DNA of 25,879 nucleotides. Source: Eubacterium sp. UBA4343 (GTDB lineage Bacteria; Bacillota; Clostridia; Lachnospirales; Lachnospiraceae). Shown here piece after piece: positions 1,873-16,034 of this stretch. Below the pieces are notes generated by a model. It was not told the origin of the DNA, searched no databases, and was given only the letters and a program-made list of their open reading frames with translations. The stretch's first letter is position 1. Each line of letters starts with the position of its first letter. The DNA lies in the NCBI GenBank assembly GCA_002394235.1, contig DGTF01000063.1:1-25879 (forward strand), given 5' to 3'. A program made the translations under genes and the position numbers.

Positions 1873-1901
1873 TTGACAATCGTAACGATCTGTCATATGA
1901 T
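1873..1901 (+). promoter_or_regulatory. consensus sigma-A promoter of the cobalamin riboswitch transcript
   Basis: TTGACA at 1873-1878 and TATGAT at 1896-1901 are separated by exactly 17 bases, nearly the ideal housekeeping promoter. Transcription would start around 1908, about 20 bases upstream of the riboswitch aptamer. It is one of the best promoters in the window. Confidence 0.8.
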
Positions 1902-1924
1902 AATTGTCGTGTATAAATTCTATA

Positions 1925-2090
1925 TCAGCTTTTCAGGTGAGACCTCAGAAGGGGTCTGAGAGGGAACCAGGTGAAAGGCCTGGACGATCCGGTCACTGTA
2001 TACGGGGAGCGAGATGCGAATGCCATTGTATGTCCGCACATATGAGAAGGCGCATGAAACGTTGATCCGTGAGTCAGGAAACCTGCCTGA
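1925..2090 (+). promoter_or_regulatory. cobalamin (AdoCbl-type) riboswitch
   Basis: The conserved blocks of the cobalamin aptamer occur in order. They are GAGAGGGAACCAGGTGAAA at 1958-1976, CCTGGACGATCCGGTCACTG at 1979-1998, GGGGAGCGA at 2024-2032 region, GCCATTG, AGAAGGCGCAT, and the closing GAGTCAGGAAACCTGCC at 2071-2087 (the B12 box). This family binds adenosylcobalamin and lowers expression of B12 synthesis or uptake genes, or of genes with B12-independent alternatives. A perfect promoter lies just upstream. No B12-related gene follows; valS downstream has its own promoter and T-box. Identity as a cobalamin riboswitch is very likely; the regulated target is unknown. Confidence 0.9.
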
Positions 2091-2421
2091 GAGGTTATAG
2101 GTTAAAGCTTCCGAGCAAAGCTTTCATTTTATGAAGATATGGAATGTCTGAACGAGTAATCACTCCGCCAGAGACCTTGAGCAGGATTTATGCATGGTTT
2201 TACGGCAGGGTGAGATTCTTCAGAGCACGCCAATGTTTTATCGTACCATTTCCTCCGCAACAGATGGCTGACGATTTTCCGCAGAACAGAAGCTGTTCTG
2301 GAGTTCCCGCCCCTCTTGTGACAGACAGGATAGAGATGAGATCAGAGATACCGGTCGCAGCTTCATTCGGAGCCTTTGCCTCCTGTAAAAGAAAAATTGA
2401 GAATATAGAGAGAAGATGACA
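2091..2421 (+). other. riboswitch-controlled transcript with no recognisable protein
   Basis: About 330 bases lie between the cobalamin aptamer and the terminator at 2424-2449. The longest forward frame is 2144-2419 (91 codons). It has no proper ribosome binding site and a composition unlike a folded protein (RVRFFRARQCF, many Pro and Arg), and matches no family I recognise. A perfect hairpin is present at 2282-2300, CAGAACAG pairing with CTGTTCTG over three bases. The stretch could be a regulatory RNA, the decayed remains of a B12-related gene, or an unusual small gene. I favour RNA or remnant. Confidence 0.45.
2104..2130 (+). promoter_or_regulatory. candidate expression-platform hairpin of the riboswitch
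   Basis: AAAGCTT at 2104-2110 can pair with AAGCTTT at 2118-2124 across a 7-base loop, followed by CATTTTATG. It sits 17 bases after the B12 box, where a riboswitch would place a terminator or sequestering stem. The stem is short and A/T rich and the T-run is interrupted, so termination would be weak. The role is inferred from position. Confidence 0.4.
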
Positions 2422-2423
2422 GT

Positions 2424-2449
2424 GCGCCTGCAGATGGGCGCTTTTTTTG
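2424..2449 (+). terminator. intrinsic terminator of the riboswitch transcript
   Basis: GCGCCT pairs with GGGCGC across a loop of about six bases (GCAGAT), followed by seven T residues. It ends the transcript that begins at the 1873-1901 promoter, giving an RNA of roughly 540 nt. Confidence 0.75.
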
Positions 2450-2498
2450 TGTCTTCACAGGCGGTCAGGATACCTTTTCACAGGTGGTCAGGATCCGC

Positions 2499-2857: not shown

Positions 2858-5512
2858 ATGAGTAAGGAACTTGCCAAAACCTACGATCCGAAGGGCATTG
2901 AGGACCGTATTTACCAGAACTGGATGGACAAGGGATATTTTCACGCAAAGGTGAACCCGGACAAAAAACCGTTCACCATCGTTATGCCGCCGCCAAATGT
3001 TACCGGTCAGCTGCATATGGGACATGCTCTGGACAATACGATGCAGGATATTTTGATCCGCTACAAGAGAATGCAGGGATACGAGGCGCTCTGGCAGCCG
3101 GGTACCGACCATGCGGCTATTGCGACCGAGGTAAAGGTCACAAATATGCTGAAGGATAAGGGCATTGACAAGCGCGAGATCGGACGCGAGGAATTTCTGA
3201 AATACTGCTGGCAGTGGAAGGACAACTATGGAAGCCGGATCATGAAACAGCTGCGTAAGCTCGGATCCTCCGCTGACTGGGAGAGAGAACGCTTTACGAT
3301 GGATGAGGGCTGCTCAAAAGCGGTTGAGGAGGTTTTCTGCCGCCTCTATGAGAAGGGCTGGATCTATAAGGGAAGCCGTATCATTAACTGGTGTCCGAAA
3401 TGTCAGACCTCTCTGTCGGACGCGGAAGTAGAGCATGTGGATCAGGACGGATTCTTCTGGCACATCAATTATCCGATCGTGGGTGAAGAGGGAAGATTTG
3501 TCGAGATCGCGACGACACGTCCGGAGACGCTTCTGGGCGATACCGCGGTTGCCGTAAATCCGGATGATGAGAGATATAAGGATCTGGTCGGCAAGATGCT
3601 GAAGCTGCCGCTGACCGACCGCGAGATTCCGGTCATTGCGGATGAATACGTGGATAAGGAATTCGGAACCGGCTGTGTAAAGATCACTCCCGCTCATGAT
3701 CCGAATGACTTCGAGGTAGGAAAACGCCACAATCTCGAGGAAATCAACATTCTGAATGATGATGCAACGATGAATGAGAAGTGCGGAAAATATGCGGGTA
3801 TGGACCGTTATGTGGCGAGAAAGGCAATTGTAAAGGATCTGGAGGACCTGGGACTTCTGGTCAAGGTCGTTCCGCACACGCATTCTGTAGGTACTCATGA
3901 CAGGTGCCATACAACTGTCGAGCCGATGGTCAAGCCACAGTGGTTTGTCCGGATGAAGGAGATGGGACAGGCTGCGCTGGATGCGCTGAACAGCGGCGAT
4001 CTGCAGTTCGTTCCGGAGAGCTATGGCAAGACCTATACGCACTGGCTGGAGAACATCAAGGACTGGTGTATCTCCCGGCAGCTGTGGTGGGGACACAGAA
4101 TTCCAGCCTACTACTGCGAGGACTGCGGAGAAATGGTTGTACAGCGCGGCGGAGCGCCTGCAAAATGCCCGAAGTGCGGGGGAACGCATTTCCGTCAGGA
4201 GGAGGATACGCTGGATACCTGGTTCTCGTCTGCACTCTGGCCCTTCTCGACACTTGGCTGGCCGGACAAGACGCCGGAGCTGGAGTATTTCTATCCGACA
4301 GATGTGCTGGTGACCGGGTACGATATCATCTTCTTCTGGGTCATCCGAATGGTGTTTTCCGCGATTGAGCAGACCGGGAAGGTTCCCTTCCACCATGTGC
4401 TGATTCACGGTCTTGTCCGTGATTCGCAGGGAAGAAAAATGAGCAAGTCCCTTGGAAACGGCATTGATCCGATCGAGGTGATTGACAAGTACGGCGCGGA
4501 CGCGCTGCGTCTGACGCTCATGACCGGAAACGCTCCGGGTAATGACATGCGTTTCTACTGGGAGAAGGTTGAGGCGAGCCGGAACTTCGCGAACAAGGTA
4601 TGGAATGCTTCGAGATTTATCATGATGAACCTCGGTGATACGGAGGTTCCGAAGGAGATGGATCCTGCAAGGCTGGATTACGCTTCCCGGTGGATTCTCT
4701 CGAAGGCGAATACCCTCGCGAAGGACGTCACGGAGAACATGGACAAGTATGAGCTTGGAATTGCGGTTCAGAAGGTCTATGATTTTATCTGGGAGGAGTT
4801 CTGCGACTGGTACATTGAGATGTCCAAGCCGGTGCTCTACAGTGAGAACGAAGACGAGAAGCTTCCGGTTCTCTGGACGCTGAAGACTGTTCTTTCGGAG
4901 GCGCTTAAGCTTCTGCATCCGTTCATGCCGTTCATTACGGAGGAGATCTACTGTACATTGAATCCGGATGAGGAATCGGTGATGATCTCTCCGTGGCCGG
5001 TCTATAGGGAAGAACACCATTTTGAAGAAGAAGAGTCAGCTGTAGAGCTGATGAAGGAGGCGGTTCGCAGAATTCGTGACGTGCGCAGCTCTCATAACGT
5101 GCCGCCGAGCAAGAAGGCAAATGTCTTCATCGTTTCCGGTGAGGAGGATGTGCTGAAGAAGTTCAGAGAGGCAGAGTCGTTCTTCGGAACACTTGCTCAT
5201 GCGGAGAGCGTTTCTCTTCAGAAGACGAAGGAGAATATCGATGACGATGCCTTTTCGGCGATCATACCGGGTGCGGTGATTTACATCCCGTTTGCGGATC
5301 TGATCGATATCGACAAGGAGAGAGAGCGTCTGACGAAGGAGAGAGAACGTCTGACGAAGGAAATTGCCCGCTCGAACGGAATGCTTGGAAACGAAAAATT
5401 CCTTCAGAAGGCTCCTGAGAAGAAGGTGCAGGAGGAGCGGGATAAGCTTGAAAATTACAGACAGATGATGGCTCAGGTGGAAGAGCGTCTGGTTCAGCTG
5501 GAGAAGAACTGA
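2858..5512 (+). CDS. valS: valine--tRNA ligase
   Basis: This is a full-length class I aminoacyl-tRNA synthetase of 884 residues that charges tRNA-Val. It has the HIGH-type motif HMGH at residues 53-56 within [13 protein letters not shown], the KMSKS motif at 527-531, two zinc-knuckle-like CPKC pairs (CPKCQ early in the editing region and CEDC...CPKC before the second catalytic half), and a valyl editing domain ([15 protein letters not shown]). It ends in the coiled-coil arm typical of ValRS ([17 protein letters not shown]). I start it at ATG 2858, behind GAGGAGGA at 2843-2850. An in-frame ATG at 2783 lies inside the attenuator and is not used. Regulation is by the T-box leader. A 28-base gap to the next gene suggests co-transcription. 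Confidence 0.97.
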
Positions 5513-5540
5513 GAGCAGACGCAGCTGGAGAAAAAGAAAG

Positions 5541-7649
5541 ATGAAGAGAATCGTGTTCAGGCAGAAAGATAACTGCGACGGGAATGACACAGAATGTTTG
5601 AACGGAAGGAAGAAGATGGCGGACCCGGAATACTGGGTCCGTCTGATGAACCGTTTCTCGGTGCCGTTCCAGGCATTGTGGTGCTGCATCCTGTATTTTA
5701 TCATGGAGCTGATCTCCAGGCGTTCATTTATTGGCGCGTGGAAATACATGACAGGAAGTCCTCTTGTCTTTCTGTACAACGCGTTTCTGATCTTTACGAC
5801 GATGTCAGTGGCATTTCTGTTCCGCAGGCGCGTCTGGGTGCGGGTATTTGTGTCTGGCTTCTGGTTTGTACTGAGTCTGGCGAACGGAATTATTCTGTCA
5901 AATCGCGTCACACCTTTTACGGGACAGGATTTGAAGCTCCTCGCAGACGCGAAGAAGGTCGTGACGGAGTATATTCCGCCGGTCCTGTTCGGTCTGATGA
6001 TGGCCGGACTGGCGGCAGGGATTTTCTTCCTGATCCGCTATTTCTTTAAGGCACCGAAATACCAGGGAAAACGCAACTGGTTTGTGGATGTTGTCATCGT
6101 CGGCGCAAGCATTGCCCTTTTTGCGGGTGCTACCGAGTTGGGTATCCACACAAGAATCCTTTCCAGTTATTTCGGAAACCTTGCCATGTCGTATCAGAAT
6201 TATGGATTTCCATATTGCTTCTCGGTCACTGTTTTTGATACCGGAATGAGCCGGCCGAACGGATATTCCGAGAAGCTGATCAGCTATATCGAGAAGGATG
6301 AGGATGAAAAGCTTCCCGATTCTGATACGAAGGGAGCGGCGGACACCAATCTCGTTTTTCTTCAGCTGGAGTCTTTTTTTGATCCGGAGACAGTGACAAG
6401 CCTGAGGATTTCCGAGGATCCGATTCCTTATTTCCATAAGCTGCAGAAAAAGTATTCTTCCGGTATGCTCAAGGTGCCGGTCGTGGGTGCCGGGACCGTA
6501 AACACGGAATTTGAGGCAATCACCGGCATGAGTCTGTCATATTTTGGGGCAGGTGAGTATCCTTACAAGACAGTTCTGAAAAAGGAAACCGTGGAGAGTA
6601 TTCCTTTTGATCTCAGGGAAATCGGGTACAGTACGCATGCCATTCATAATAATGAGGCAACCTTCTACGGGAGGAATACGGTTTATCCGAATCTCGGTTT
6701 TGATACCTTCACCTCCGAAGAATACATGCCGGATATCACCGATGTGACGGAAACCGGGTGGGTCAAGGATCATATTCTGACATCGGAAATCATGAAGGCT
6801 CTGAAATCCACAGACGGGGCGGACTATGTGTATACTGTGTCCGTGCAGGGGCACGGGGATTACCCGACCGAGCCTGTGGTCAGTGATCCGGTGATCACTG
6901 TGACCGGAGCGGAGAAGAAAGAACAGAACGATTATTCGTGGGAATATTACTGTGAGCAGATTCATGAGATGGATCAGTTCGTCCATGAGCTTACGGATAC
7001 GCTTCAGAATTTCGATGAGCCGGTTGTTCTGGTGATGTACGGAGATCATCTTCCGACGATGGGCCTGAAGGAAAGTGATGTGAAGGGATGGAATCTATAC
7101 CGGACACCCTATATCATCTGGGATAACATGGGTCTGAAGAAGAAGGACAAGAATCTGGCCGCCTATCAGATCGGAGCCGAGGTTCTGAAGAGGCTCGGGC
7201 TGTACGACGGGACGCTGGTCAGATACCATGAGTCGGAGCGGGGAGACCGGTTCTACCAGAGCAATCTGGAGGTTATGCAGTATGATATGCTATATGGCGA
7301 GCAGTACGTCTATAACGGAACGAGTCCGTTCGCGCCGACCGACATGAAGATGGGCACCGAGCCGATTCAAGTGGAGCGGATCGTGAAATCCGGAACCGAT
7401 GAGGAACCGCTTTATTACGTTTATGGGCAGAACTTTACGGCGGCCAGCAGACTGGCGGTGAATGGTGAGATGGTGAAGGATACGGTCTGTGTCAGCAACA
7501 GTCTGCTTCTTGCGCAGGGACTTGAGCTGAAGGGCACGGATGAGATCAGTGTGGTTCAGAAGAGTGATACCTCGAACGAGATTCTGTCAGAAACGGATGA
7601 AAAACCGCTCGCATTATACTTTGAAAAGGAAGAGGCAACCAAAAATTGA
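5541..7649 (+). CDS. LTA synthase family membrane sulfatase with C-terminal extension
   Basis: An LtaS-type enzyme that transfers glycerol phosphate (or a similar head group) to build lipoteichoic acid or a related surface polymer. About five N-terminal membrane segments precede an extracellular sulfatase-fold domain. Catalytic and metal residues are visible: Glu277 in QLESFF, nucleophile Thr319 in GAGTVNTEF, and Asp502-His503 in GDHLP. An alternative ATG at 5616, with GGAAGGAAGAAG before it, would give a 677-residue protein. Its active-site numbers (252, 294, 477, 478) lie very near those of S. aureus LtaS (255, 300, 475, 476). Residues from about 598 on form an extra beta-rich segment (YYVYGQNFTAASRLAVNG) resembling an IPT/TIG fold. 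It overlaps folC by four bases. Family is secure; exact polymer unknown. Confidence 0.88.
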   Translation: MKRIVFRQKDNCDGNDTECLNGRKKMADPEYWVRLMNRFSVPFQALWCCILYFIMELISRRSFIGAWKYMTGSPLVFLYNAFLIFTTMSVAFLFRRRVWVRVFVSGFWFVLSLANGIILSNRVTPFTGQDLKLLADAKKVVTEYIPPVLFGLMMAGLAAGIFFLIRYFFKAPKYQGKRNWFVDVVIVGASIALFAGATELGIHTRILSSYFGNLAMSYQNYGFPYCFSVTVFDTGMSRPNGYSEKLISYIEKDEDEKLPDSDTKGAADTNLVFLQLESFFDPETVTSLRISEDPIPYFHKLQKKYSSGMLKVPVVGAGTVNTEFEAITGMSLSYFGAGEYPYKTVLKKETVESIPFDLREIGYSTHAIHNNEATFYGRNTVYPNLGFDTFTSEEYMPDITDVTETGWVKDHILTSEIMKALKSTDGADYVYTVSVQGHGDYPTEPVVSDPVITVTGAEKKEQNDYSWEYYCEQIHEMDQFVHELTDTLQNFDEPVVLVMYGDHLPTMGLKESDVKGWNLYRTPYIIWDNMGLKKKDKNLAAYQIGAEVLKRLGLYDGTLVRYHESERGDRFYQSNLEVMQYDMLYGEQYVYNGTSPFAPTDMKMGTEPIQVERIVKSGTDEEPLYYVYGQNFTAASRLAVNGEMVKDTVCVSNSLLLAQGLELKGTDEISVVQKSDTSNEILSETDEKPLALYFEKEEATKN

Positions 7650-8944
7650 CATACAATGAAACAGTAGATTATATTGAAAGCATCCCGAAATTTACCACCA
7701 AGACGTCTCTTGATCACACACGACGCATTCTGGACAGGCTCGGACACCCGGAAGAGGGAATGAAGATTATACACGTGGCCGGGACAAACGGTAAGGGCAG
7801 TGTGTGCGCCTATTTGAATTCTATGCTGATGGAGGGTGGGTATAAGGTCGGACTTTTCACCTCTCCGCATCTGATCCGGATCAATGAGAGATACCAGATC
7901 AACGGAGAAACGGTGAGTGATGATCTGTTTACAGAGGCTTTTGACAAAGTGATGGCAGCGGTGAAGCTGACCATGGCGGAGGGGGATACTCATCCGACCT
8001 ACTTTGAGACCTTATTCCTGATGGGCCTTATGATTTTCCGGGAAAAACAGGTAGATTATACGATCCTTGAGGTCGGAATGGGAGGCAGGCTGGATGCGAC
8101 AAATGTGATCCGGCATCCCCTCGCATCCATCATTACATCGATCAGCCTGGACCACACGGAGTATCTCGGGGATACAATCCCGGAGATCGCTTTTGAGAAG
8201 GCGGGGATTATCAAGGAGGGCGCACCGGTAATCTTTGACGGACATGATGGGGAAGCTTCCGAAGTGATCCGGAAGCGAGCAGAGGAACTTGGAGCGCCCT
8301 GCTATGAGCTGACACCTGCCATGTACCATGCGGTGCGTACGACGAAGGAAGGGGTCACTTTTGACTTTACGCCGGATGGCACTGCTGCCGTCCGTCTCCG
8401 GATTCCGCAGATTGCGGAGTATCAGATGATGAATGCTTCTCTCGCATTTTTCACGATGAAACTTCTGGAGAAGATACATGGGATACCGGAGGTAAAACTG
8501 GCGGCAGGCCTTTCGCGGATGAAATGGCCCTGCAGGATGGAGACGGTGCTTCCGGATGTCATCATCGACGGCGCACACAATGCGGACGGAATTGCCGAAT
8601 TTGTCAGAACGGTGGAACATTTTCATAAGGATCAGGAGATCACACTGCTGTTTTCCTGTGTCCGGGACAAGAGATACCAGGACATGATCCGGGAACTGGT
8701 GGAGGGAATTCACCCTGACCGCGTCATTACGACCCGGATCTCCGGCAGCCGTGAAGTTTCCGAGGATGAACTTGCAGAGCTGTTTCGGAATGATGGAGCG
8801 GTGGCGGTTTTCTCGGAGCCTTCACCAGAGCGGGCTCTTGATCTGGCCCTTGCCCTGAAGGAGGATGGTATGCTGTTCTGCGTCGGTTCGCTGTATCTGG
8901 CGGGAGAACTGAAGGCTTATCTGAACGCCGCGAAGCGAAACTGA
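7646..8944 (+). CDS. folC: folylpolyglutamate synthase / dihydrofolate synthase
   Basis: A 432-residue ATP-dependent Mur-ligase-fold enzyme that adds glutamates to folates, and in many bacteria also makes dihydrofolate from dihydropteroate. The P-loop is at residues 43-52 (HVAGTNGKGS). The family segments LFTSPHLIRINERYQING, EVGMGGRLDATNV, SISLDHTEYLGDT and IIDGAHN are all present and length is normal. The start is TTG at 7646, overlapping the stop of the upstream gene (TTGA), with AGGAAGAGG about ten bases before it. Translational coupling to the LTA-synthase-like gene is likely. Whether it has both activities cannot be told from sequence alone. Confidence 0.95.
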   Translation: MTYNETVDYIESIPKFTTKTSLDHTRRILDRLGHPEEGMKIIHVAGTNGKGSVCAYLNSMLMEGGYKVGLFTSPHLIRINERYQINGETVSDDLFTEAFDKVMAAVKLTMAEGDTHPTYFETLFLMGLMIFREKQVDYTILEVGMGGRLDATNVIRHPLASIITSISLDHTEYLGDTIPEIAFEKAGIIKEGAPVIFDGHDGEASEVIRKRAEELGAPCYELTPAMYHAVRTTKEGVTFDFTPDGTAAVRLRIPQIAEYQMMNASLAFFTMKLLEKIHGIPEVKLAAGLSRMKWPCRMETVLPDVIIDGAHNADGIAEFVRTVEHFHKDQEITLLFSCVRDKRYQDMIRELVEGIHPDRVITTRISGSREVSEDELAELFRNDGAVAVFSEPSPERALDLALALKEDGMLFCVGSLYLAGELKAYLNAAKRN

Positions 8945-15687: not shown

Positions 15688-15850
15688 TGTATAAGCTACG
15701 GATTGCTCCGTGCTTCGCACTCTCGCAATCCCACAGGCATTCGCACTTCCGTGCCGCTAGCGCGTCACTTCGTGCTCATACCTATTGCCTTCGAAATCGC
15801 ATTCGGTCTCTTACGCGCGCTTCGCGACAGGCGACCTGTCTGCGTTTTCA
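15688..15850. repeat. related palindrome-rich element between copies A and B
   Basis: This stretch begins TGTATAAGCTACGGATTGC and carries many small inverted units around TTC, such as GTGCTTCGCAC, GCGCTTCGCG and CACTTCGTG. It ends CTGTCTGCGTTTTCACAATG directly before copy B. Its start and end resemble the separate element at 21761-21841 (TGTATAAGCTGCGGATTGC and CTGTCTGCGTTTTCG), so it is a second member of that group, longer by about 75 bases. Confidence 0.6.
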
Positions 15851-16034
15851 CAATGTGTATAAAGCCAGCTGCTCCGTTGCTTCGCAACTCACGCAGCTGC
15901 CACATGTATTCGCATTCTCGCGTTGCTTCGCATCGCTCCATGCTCATACATGTTAGCGTCGATCAAGCACGCAGTTTTCTGTGCATGCTTCGCATGCCCA
16001 AAACTGCCCGCTTGACGACGGCTTTATACAATAA
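15851..16034. repeat. palindromic intergenic repeat, copy B with internal duplication
   Basis: This copy has the same inverted ends and right-hand stem as copy A. It differs mainly by a 46-base insertion after GTTGCTTCGCA, which is followed by a second GTTGCTTCGCA, so it looks like an expansion between short direct repeats. The right end TTGACG (16012-16017) followed 17 bases later by TATTTC could act as a weak promoter for the 81-residue gene at 16067. Confidence 0.75.

Follow-up and report, generated by a model that had tools for sequence, protein, structure and literature searches.

A conserved, structured RNA domain lies directly behind a cobalamin riboswitch aptamer in the analysed window (the whole stretch of 25,879 nt from Eubacterium sp. 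UBA4343), and the two recur together in other genomes. It is very probably a noncoding RNA family of its own, tied to the B12 aptamer and not represented in Rfam 15 as searched; no description of this RNA was found in the open-access literature that was searched. We consider it probable that the unit is a riboswitch-controlled small RNA (sRNA) gene, repressed by B12, whose product would act in trans by blocking Shine-Dalgarno sites, with the mRNA of a corrinoid protein as the leading candidate target. The features to which the text refers are as follows.

1873–1901, + strand: putative sigma-70-type promoter, −35 TTGACA and −10 TATGAT with a 17-nt spacer, matching 11 of 12 consensus positions
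1918–2104, + strand: cobalamin riboswitch aptamer (RF00174), 100.3 bits, full model
2104–2124, + strand: hairpin AAAGCUU/AAGCUUU directly 3' of the aptamer, from predicted pairing and sequence
2136–2306, + strand: conserved structured RNA domain of 171 nt, body of the proposed sRNA, from alignments and covariance models
2154–2165, + strand: hairpin H2, GAGU/ACUC (2154–2157 with 2162–2165), covarying
2167–2214, + strand: most conserved core, GCC..ACCUU..AUUUAUGCA..ACGGCAGGGUGAG, from alignments
2218–2303, + strand: outer helix, CUUCAG (2218–2223) with CUGGAG (2298–2303), from covariation
2240–2275, + strand: inner covarying hairpin with the loop UUUCCUCCGC at 2249–2258, from covariation and held-out copies
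2275–2282, + strand: second C-rich motif UUUUCCGC, beside the hairpin, from alignments
2424–2448, + strand: predicted intrinsic terminator, hairpin 2424–2441 followed by a T run, from a sequence scan

This layout agrees with the original prediction of a near-perfect promoter, a complete cobalamin aptamer and a terminator bounding a transcript of about 540 nt. The −35 box TTGAC is retained in all seven genus copies that extend that far, and the transcript is predicted to run from about 1908 to about 2448. A hairpin with a T run was also read by eye at the RNA end in relatives, while a scan of 5 kb gave four terminators against 3.9 expected from shuffled sequences, i.e. no excess. Within the segment 2090–2420, singled out earlier for alignment across related genomes, similarity to the relatives extends to about 2319, and 2320–2420 is extra sequence specific to the window and absent from seven relatives. 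The RNA sits between a histidine phosphatase gene (PF00300 by Pfam; 932–1708, +) upstream and valS downstream, all three on the + strand, and terminates before valS, which has its own promoter-like site (2499–2527) and its own T-box (2542–2797). The phosphatase shows weak, below-cut-off similarity to alpha-ribazole phosphatase, an enzyme of the B12 pathway. Elsewhere in the window, tandem Clostridiales-1 RNAs (RF01699, an RNA family of unknown role) occupy intergenic positions 15690–15850 and 15856–16030 on the − strand, with 76 and 100 bits.

By its sequence, the window aptamer is a full member of RF00174, matching model positions 1–189 end to end (E 2.8e-24, score 100.3 against a cut-off of 31.5). 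The adjoining hairpin at 2104–2124, which we take to be P13-like, is maintained in genus copies with changes on both strands and probably belongs to the 3' part of the aptamer. As regards a protein gene under aptamer control, there is no conserved ORF before the terminator.

To characterize the domain, 19 copies were aligned from sequence alone. A scan of column pairs, from which two near-identical rows (G002, G011) were left out, revealed three stacks far above the rest, namely the UUUCCUCCGC hairpin, H2 and the outer helix, the last of which appears in relatives as CUUCGG/CCGAAG and CUUCGU/ACGAAG. Together the three helices comprise 17 pairs, and 90.1% of the alignment cells pair. Changes on both sides occur in 11 pairs, compared with 8.1 in shuffles (11 of 500 shuffles reach 11). 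The covariation score is 0.485, a value reached by none of 500 shuffles (mean 0.233) and far from the maximum of 0.102 obtained when the structure is slid along the alignment; the slid control carries more weight, because related sequences can exceed shuffles without any structure. Folding of the window sequence alone is not unusually stable (z −1.28).

The loop UUUCCUCCGC is complementary to Shine-Dalgarno sequences, and the Shine-Dalgarno complement UUUUCCUCCGC is presented by one hairpin. Most copies carry CCUCCGC in the hairpin loop, usually followed by A, and UUUCCGC or UUUCCUC beside the hairpin; the C-rich motifs diverge in L070 and in the type represented by G707, G709 and G186. When the better motif of each copy was taken, the hairpin with a C-rich loop was found in 11 of 13 held-out copies, its stem being reached by at most 16 of 300 shuffles, and L060 and L070 failed this test. 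In the same test, the second motif of L141, L142, L158 and L313 lay outside any hairpin. Inspection by eye suggested that the second motif may pair with the core. The domain has no Rfam match. With relaxed cut-offs on 2060–2470, Rfam matched the aptamer tail and also gave U6 (19.4 bits, cut-off 44) and mir-2432 (13.8 bits, cut-off 100), both of which were taken as chance.

The distribution of the family was followed by DNA searches and by models. A DNA search covered 98 relatives and then the genus, represented by 16 genomes; eight of the 16, the window's genome included, contain the segment that lies 3' of the aptamer. A covariance model built from eight sequences of 2136–2306, with no aptamer included (R1), matched 19 of 397 family genomes at E 0.01. 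Outside the genus it hit 18 loci, 11 of which are preceded by a same-strand RF00174 aptamer; the other seven (22–25 bits, no aptamer) were taken as chance. Carriers number 13 of 397 genomes counting two genus members, or 14 with G186. A domain-only pattern scan over named genomes yielded 20 loci, Bilifractor porci NZ_VUMV01000003.1 among them. Eight had already been found, and eight of the 12 new ones have RF00174 upstream; of the remainder, L111 and L118 have an R1 match but sit where the available sequence ends, and L109 and L110 have none. The new loci are labelled Fusicatenibacter, Candidatus Scatomonas, Lacrimispora saccharolytica An817, Lachnospiraceae and Eubacterium.

A second model built from 19 sequences (R2) gave 41–88 bits for nine aptamer-linked copies outside its training set and at most 20.4 for nine aptamer-less loci, a split that is supporting rather than independent because the copies were first found via R1 or the pattern. 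When 392 genomes of the order were searched, R2 contributed G707 and G709 with three loci (36–42 bits), all three behind aptamers, and its 15 other loci there reached at most 25.3 bits, none behind an aptamer. G709 has two copies, both behind aptamers, the second of which (L158, G709:C6) has the variant C-rich motifs CUCCGCAA and UCCUCCGCA. Over 28 genomes the same model added G186, behind an aptamer, and a partial copy in G010 at a contig edge, which brings the genus to nine of 16 genomes, Bilifractor porci among them. Weakly scoring loci without an aptamer (L063, L065, L066, L068, L069, L071, L072; L109, L110; L143–L157; L314–L324) were treated as chance, as was a 43-nt match in the window's own genome (L052, E 1e-3) with no sign of the unit. 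Searches of more than 40 genomes scored only a few candidates per genome under strict filters, so that "non-carrier" here means not found; the non-carriers used in the target comparison below were searched again, more deeply.

Neighbouring genes differ among copies. valS lies close downstream of the RNA in G000, G006, G008, G014 and G015. In G002, a PAS-EAL-GGDEF gene (Pfam; L038, about 4962–8420) separates valS from the RNA; G011 has a close counterpart behind the RNA (L039, from about 5100), at which point the contig ends. This gene is absent at the equivalent place in the window. In G007 (L043), the RNA is followed by a serine acetyltransferase gene and a cluster with a dehydratase large subunit (PF02286), which looks like a B12-dependent propanediol cluster.

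We have also addressed how B12 might control the RNA. The distance between aptamer and domain ranges from 32 to 186 nt in the 24 loci having both parts. Ten of these (L057, L062, L064, L067, L070, L116, L141, L142, L158 and L313) contain a U-tract between the two, preceded by a hairpin in eight according to a simple search and, in L062 and L064, by a hairpin with a longer loop recognized by eye. This anatomy suggests a riboswitch that would stop transcription, and an excerpt of PMC11477304 describes cobalamin riboswitches as OFF switches. The other 14 loci, including that of the window, have no U-tract and a gap of 32–44 nt.

CCUCC complements the Shine-Dalgarno core. Since most copies keep CCUCCGC, beyond CCUCC, B12-related mRNAs with a matching ribosome site were sought. 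PF02310 proteins surveyed in five carriers gave 16 loci, and the target idea arose after these had been viewed. Among them was a methyltransferase-type corrinoid protein of 213 aa (PF02310 and PF02607; its best NCBIfam match, MtgC, is below cut-off). In the window's genome, G000, its gene has the ribosome site aaaGCGGAGGA and is followed by a corrinoid-activator-like gene, and in G008 a methyl-THF:corrinoid methyltransferase precedes it. Elsewhere in G000 (G000:C22:170220–172077), two homocysteine S-methyltransferase genes in tandem stand just before another cobalamin riboswitch (172113–172305); the ribosome site of the first is CGGAGG, which makes this gene a possible second target. Taken together, all these genes probably make up a split B12-dependent methionine synthase.

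The Shine-Dalgarno sequence of the corrinoid gene is CGGAGG in 13 of the 14 carriers with an orthologue (eight of the genus and G111, G420, G323, G278 and G254), the exception being G186 with AGGAGG. Among 19 non-carrier orthologues, CGGAGG occurs once (G282), next to 15 cases of AGGAGG and three of UGGAGG. The Fisher test gives 3.3e-7 when loci are counted and 0.001 when genera are (5 of 6 against 1 of 17), in both cases uncorrected for the ancestry that the rows share. Two fused MetH-like proteins (the third match of G315, and G232) are left out of this tally. As background, CGGAGG precedes the start codon of 15 among 372 genes of the window's genome; the corresponding figures are 3 of 166 in G323 and 2 of 87 in G008. 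These counts are approximate because the simple gene caller missed or mis-started genes, the corrinoid gene included. Within the genus, all eight full carriers possess the orthologue (at least 90% identity). The remaining eight genomes, among them the partial carrier G010 (67% complete), lack it and have relatives that reach at most 63% identity. No orthologue was found in G010 or in the six carriers G171, G155, G446, G158, G707 and G709; in G442 and G146 the sole match is a paralogue, with AGGAGG.

Perfect pairing between the RNA and the candidate target extends over 8 nt in G000, 9 nt in G323 and 6 nt in G008. Pairing of at least this length occurs, by approximate count, in 13 of 372, 1 of 166 and 28 of 87 of the remaining start regions, respectively, making the length ordinary in G000 and G008, two of the three genomes. 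The exact sequence GCGGAGGAAA has 36 sites in the window's own genome, and of the 30 examined five lie shortly before an ORF start of at least 60 aa, with no obvious target. Among the matches listed for TGCGGAGG..ATG in eight genomes there were too many for interpretation, and ranking start regions by energy, with entire hairpins as seeds, was uninformative, the stems being dominant.

According to the mechanism that we propose, transcription would start near 1908 and the cobalamin aptamer would be made first. With B12 bound, the RNA body would not be produced in active form: in distant copies, the intrinsic terminator between aptamer and body would halt synthesis, and in the 14 compact loci B12 might act by refolding, by masking of the loops or by another type of termination. 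Without B12, the structured body of about 170 nt would follow and end at its own terminator. The C-rich stretches UUUUCCUCCGC, in the hairpin loop, and UUUUCCGC, beside it, are complementary to Shine-Dalgarno sequences, with a match that goes past the generic CCUCC and takes in CCUCCGC. They would therefore prevent translation of mRNAs with the ribosome site (G)CGGAGG, first of all that of the methyltransferase-type corrinoid protein. That the RNA acts in trans is likely; Shine-Dalgarno pairing, judged from the sequences, is on balance favoured, and the corrinoid protein is a plausible target with chances close to even. The outcome would be B12 sparing, with less B12-binding protein made when the vitamin is scarce, comparable to the way in which RyhB spares iron. 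We put forward only tentatively the fuller reading of a Lachnospiraceae family of riboswitch-gated sRNAs which, under B12 scarcity, turns off the corrinoid subunit and perhaps homocysteine methyltransferase too.

Several other readings were weighed. It is unlikely, yet the best placed of these, that the B12-controlled RNA binds a protein and not mRNA, either as an ANTAR sponge of the EutX/Rli55 kind or as a ligand of some other RNA-binding protein, one that would recognize both the invariant core and the C-rich loops. PMC5821096 and PMC8934654 describe the same layout, a B12 aptamer and then noncoding RNA; conservation of the core at 2167–2214 exceeds the needs of antisense pairing, and an ANTAR gene is present in 15 of 16 genus genomes. 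ANTAR genes are, however, also present in genomes without the RNA, and among 34 sequences scanned A1/G4 hexaloops with at least four pairs occur in only 10, in unlike places and never in the window. As this motif is not conserved, the ANTAR sponge was rejected, and the particular Rli55/EutX model to which the original prediction had pointed is not supported.

A smaller chance is given to the domain being a second sensor or another complex cis-acting element, such as one half of a tandem riboswitch deciding read-through into the next gene. The core is strongly conserved and valS is downstream in several copies, and in the Fusicatenibacter-type loci L103, L113, L114 and L121 the end terminator seems, by eye, to overlap the 3' arm of the outer helix; this shared sequence implies that terminator and helix may exclude each other. 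Against a cis role, the next gene varies (valS, PAS-EAL-GGDEF in G002, the serine acetyltransferase and dehydratase cluster in G007), valS lies on the opposite strand in L058, and the window's valS comes with a promoter-like site and a T-box of its own.

That the segment is what is left of a lost gene once regulated by B12, or that it encodes a small protein, is very improbable and was rejected: the window does contain a 91-aa ORF (2144–2419), and L056 one of 87 codons, but the former has no Pfam match, its reading frame is not conserved among 27 copies (an ATG stands at the corresponding position in 21, and in 17 of those the ORF falls short of 50 codons), the helices of 2136–2306 covary, and the unit of aptamer and structured RNA is present in several genera. 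The earlier view that no credible protein follows the aptamer is thus borne out, and the comparison of covariation with codon conservation that it called for comes down on the side of structure. Of the two origins it had left side by side, covariation, aptamer linkage across genera and the absence of a kept frame favour a B12-responsive sRNA over a relic.

Gene-less riboswitches are easily taken for relics; here the riboswitch is half of a conserved unit of sensor and structured RNA, found in several gut-bacterial genera and accompanied by a specific candidate target in B12 metabolism. If the preferred reading of a trans-acting sRNA is true, a riboswitch governs a base-pairing RNA, a local sensor becomes a trans-acting regulator, and vitamin sparing can take an RNA route.

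Comparison with known systems places the unit as follows. The window shares with cobalamin riboswitches of RF00174 the full aptamer, and differs from them generally in that the aptamer precedes a structured RNA and not a transporter or biosynthesis gene. RsaE and RNAIII are C-rich, Shine-Dalgarno-pairing sRNAs of Firmicutes, and resemble the window RNA in having hairpin loops whose C-rich motifs are complementary to ribosome sites, whereas the domain described here has no match in Rfam; sRNAs of this type are not known to follow a riboswitch aptamer. Antisense-acting riboswitches (pocR of Listeria, the ubiG operon of Clostridium acetobutylicum) silence cofactor-dependent functions when the cofactor is missing, as summarized in an excerpt of PMC9943018, and the proposed logic of silencing without cofactor is the same; as described there, however, they are antisense to a neighbour, while the window RNA is intergenic and on the + strand like its neighbours. 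The nearest precedent in plan, as described in PMC5821096 and PMC8934654, is EutX/Rli55 of Enterococcus faecalis and Listeria monocytogenes, a gene-less cobalamin riboswitch with noncoding RNA downstream that is shortened upon binding of AdoCbl. Both combine an aptamer with noncoding RNA and no gene, but the defining dual A1/G4 hexaloop of the ANTAR site is unconserved in the present family, which has instead a larger covarying fold with CCUCCGC loops.
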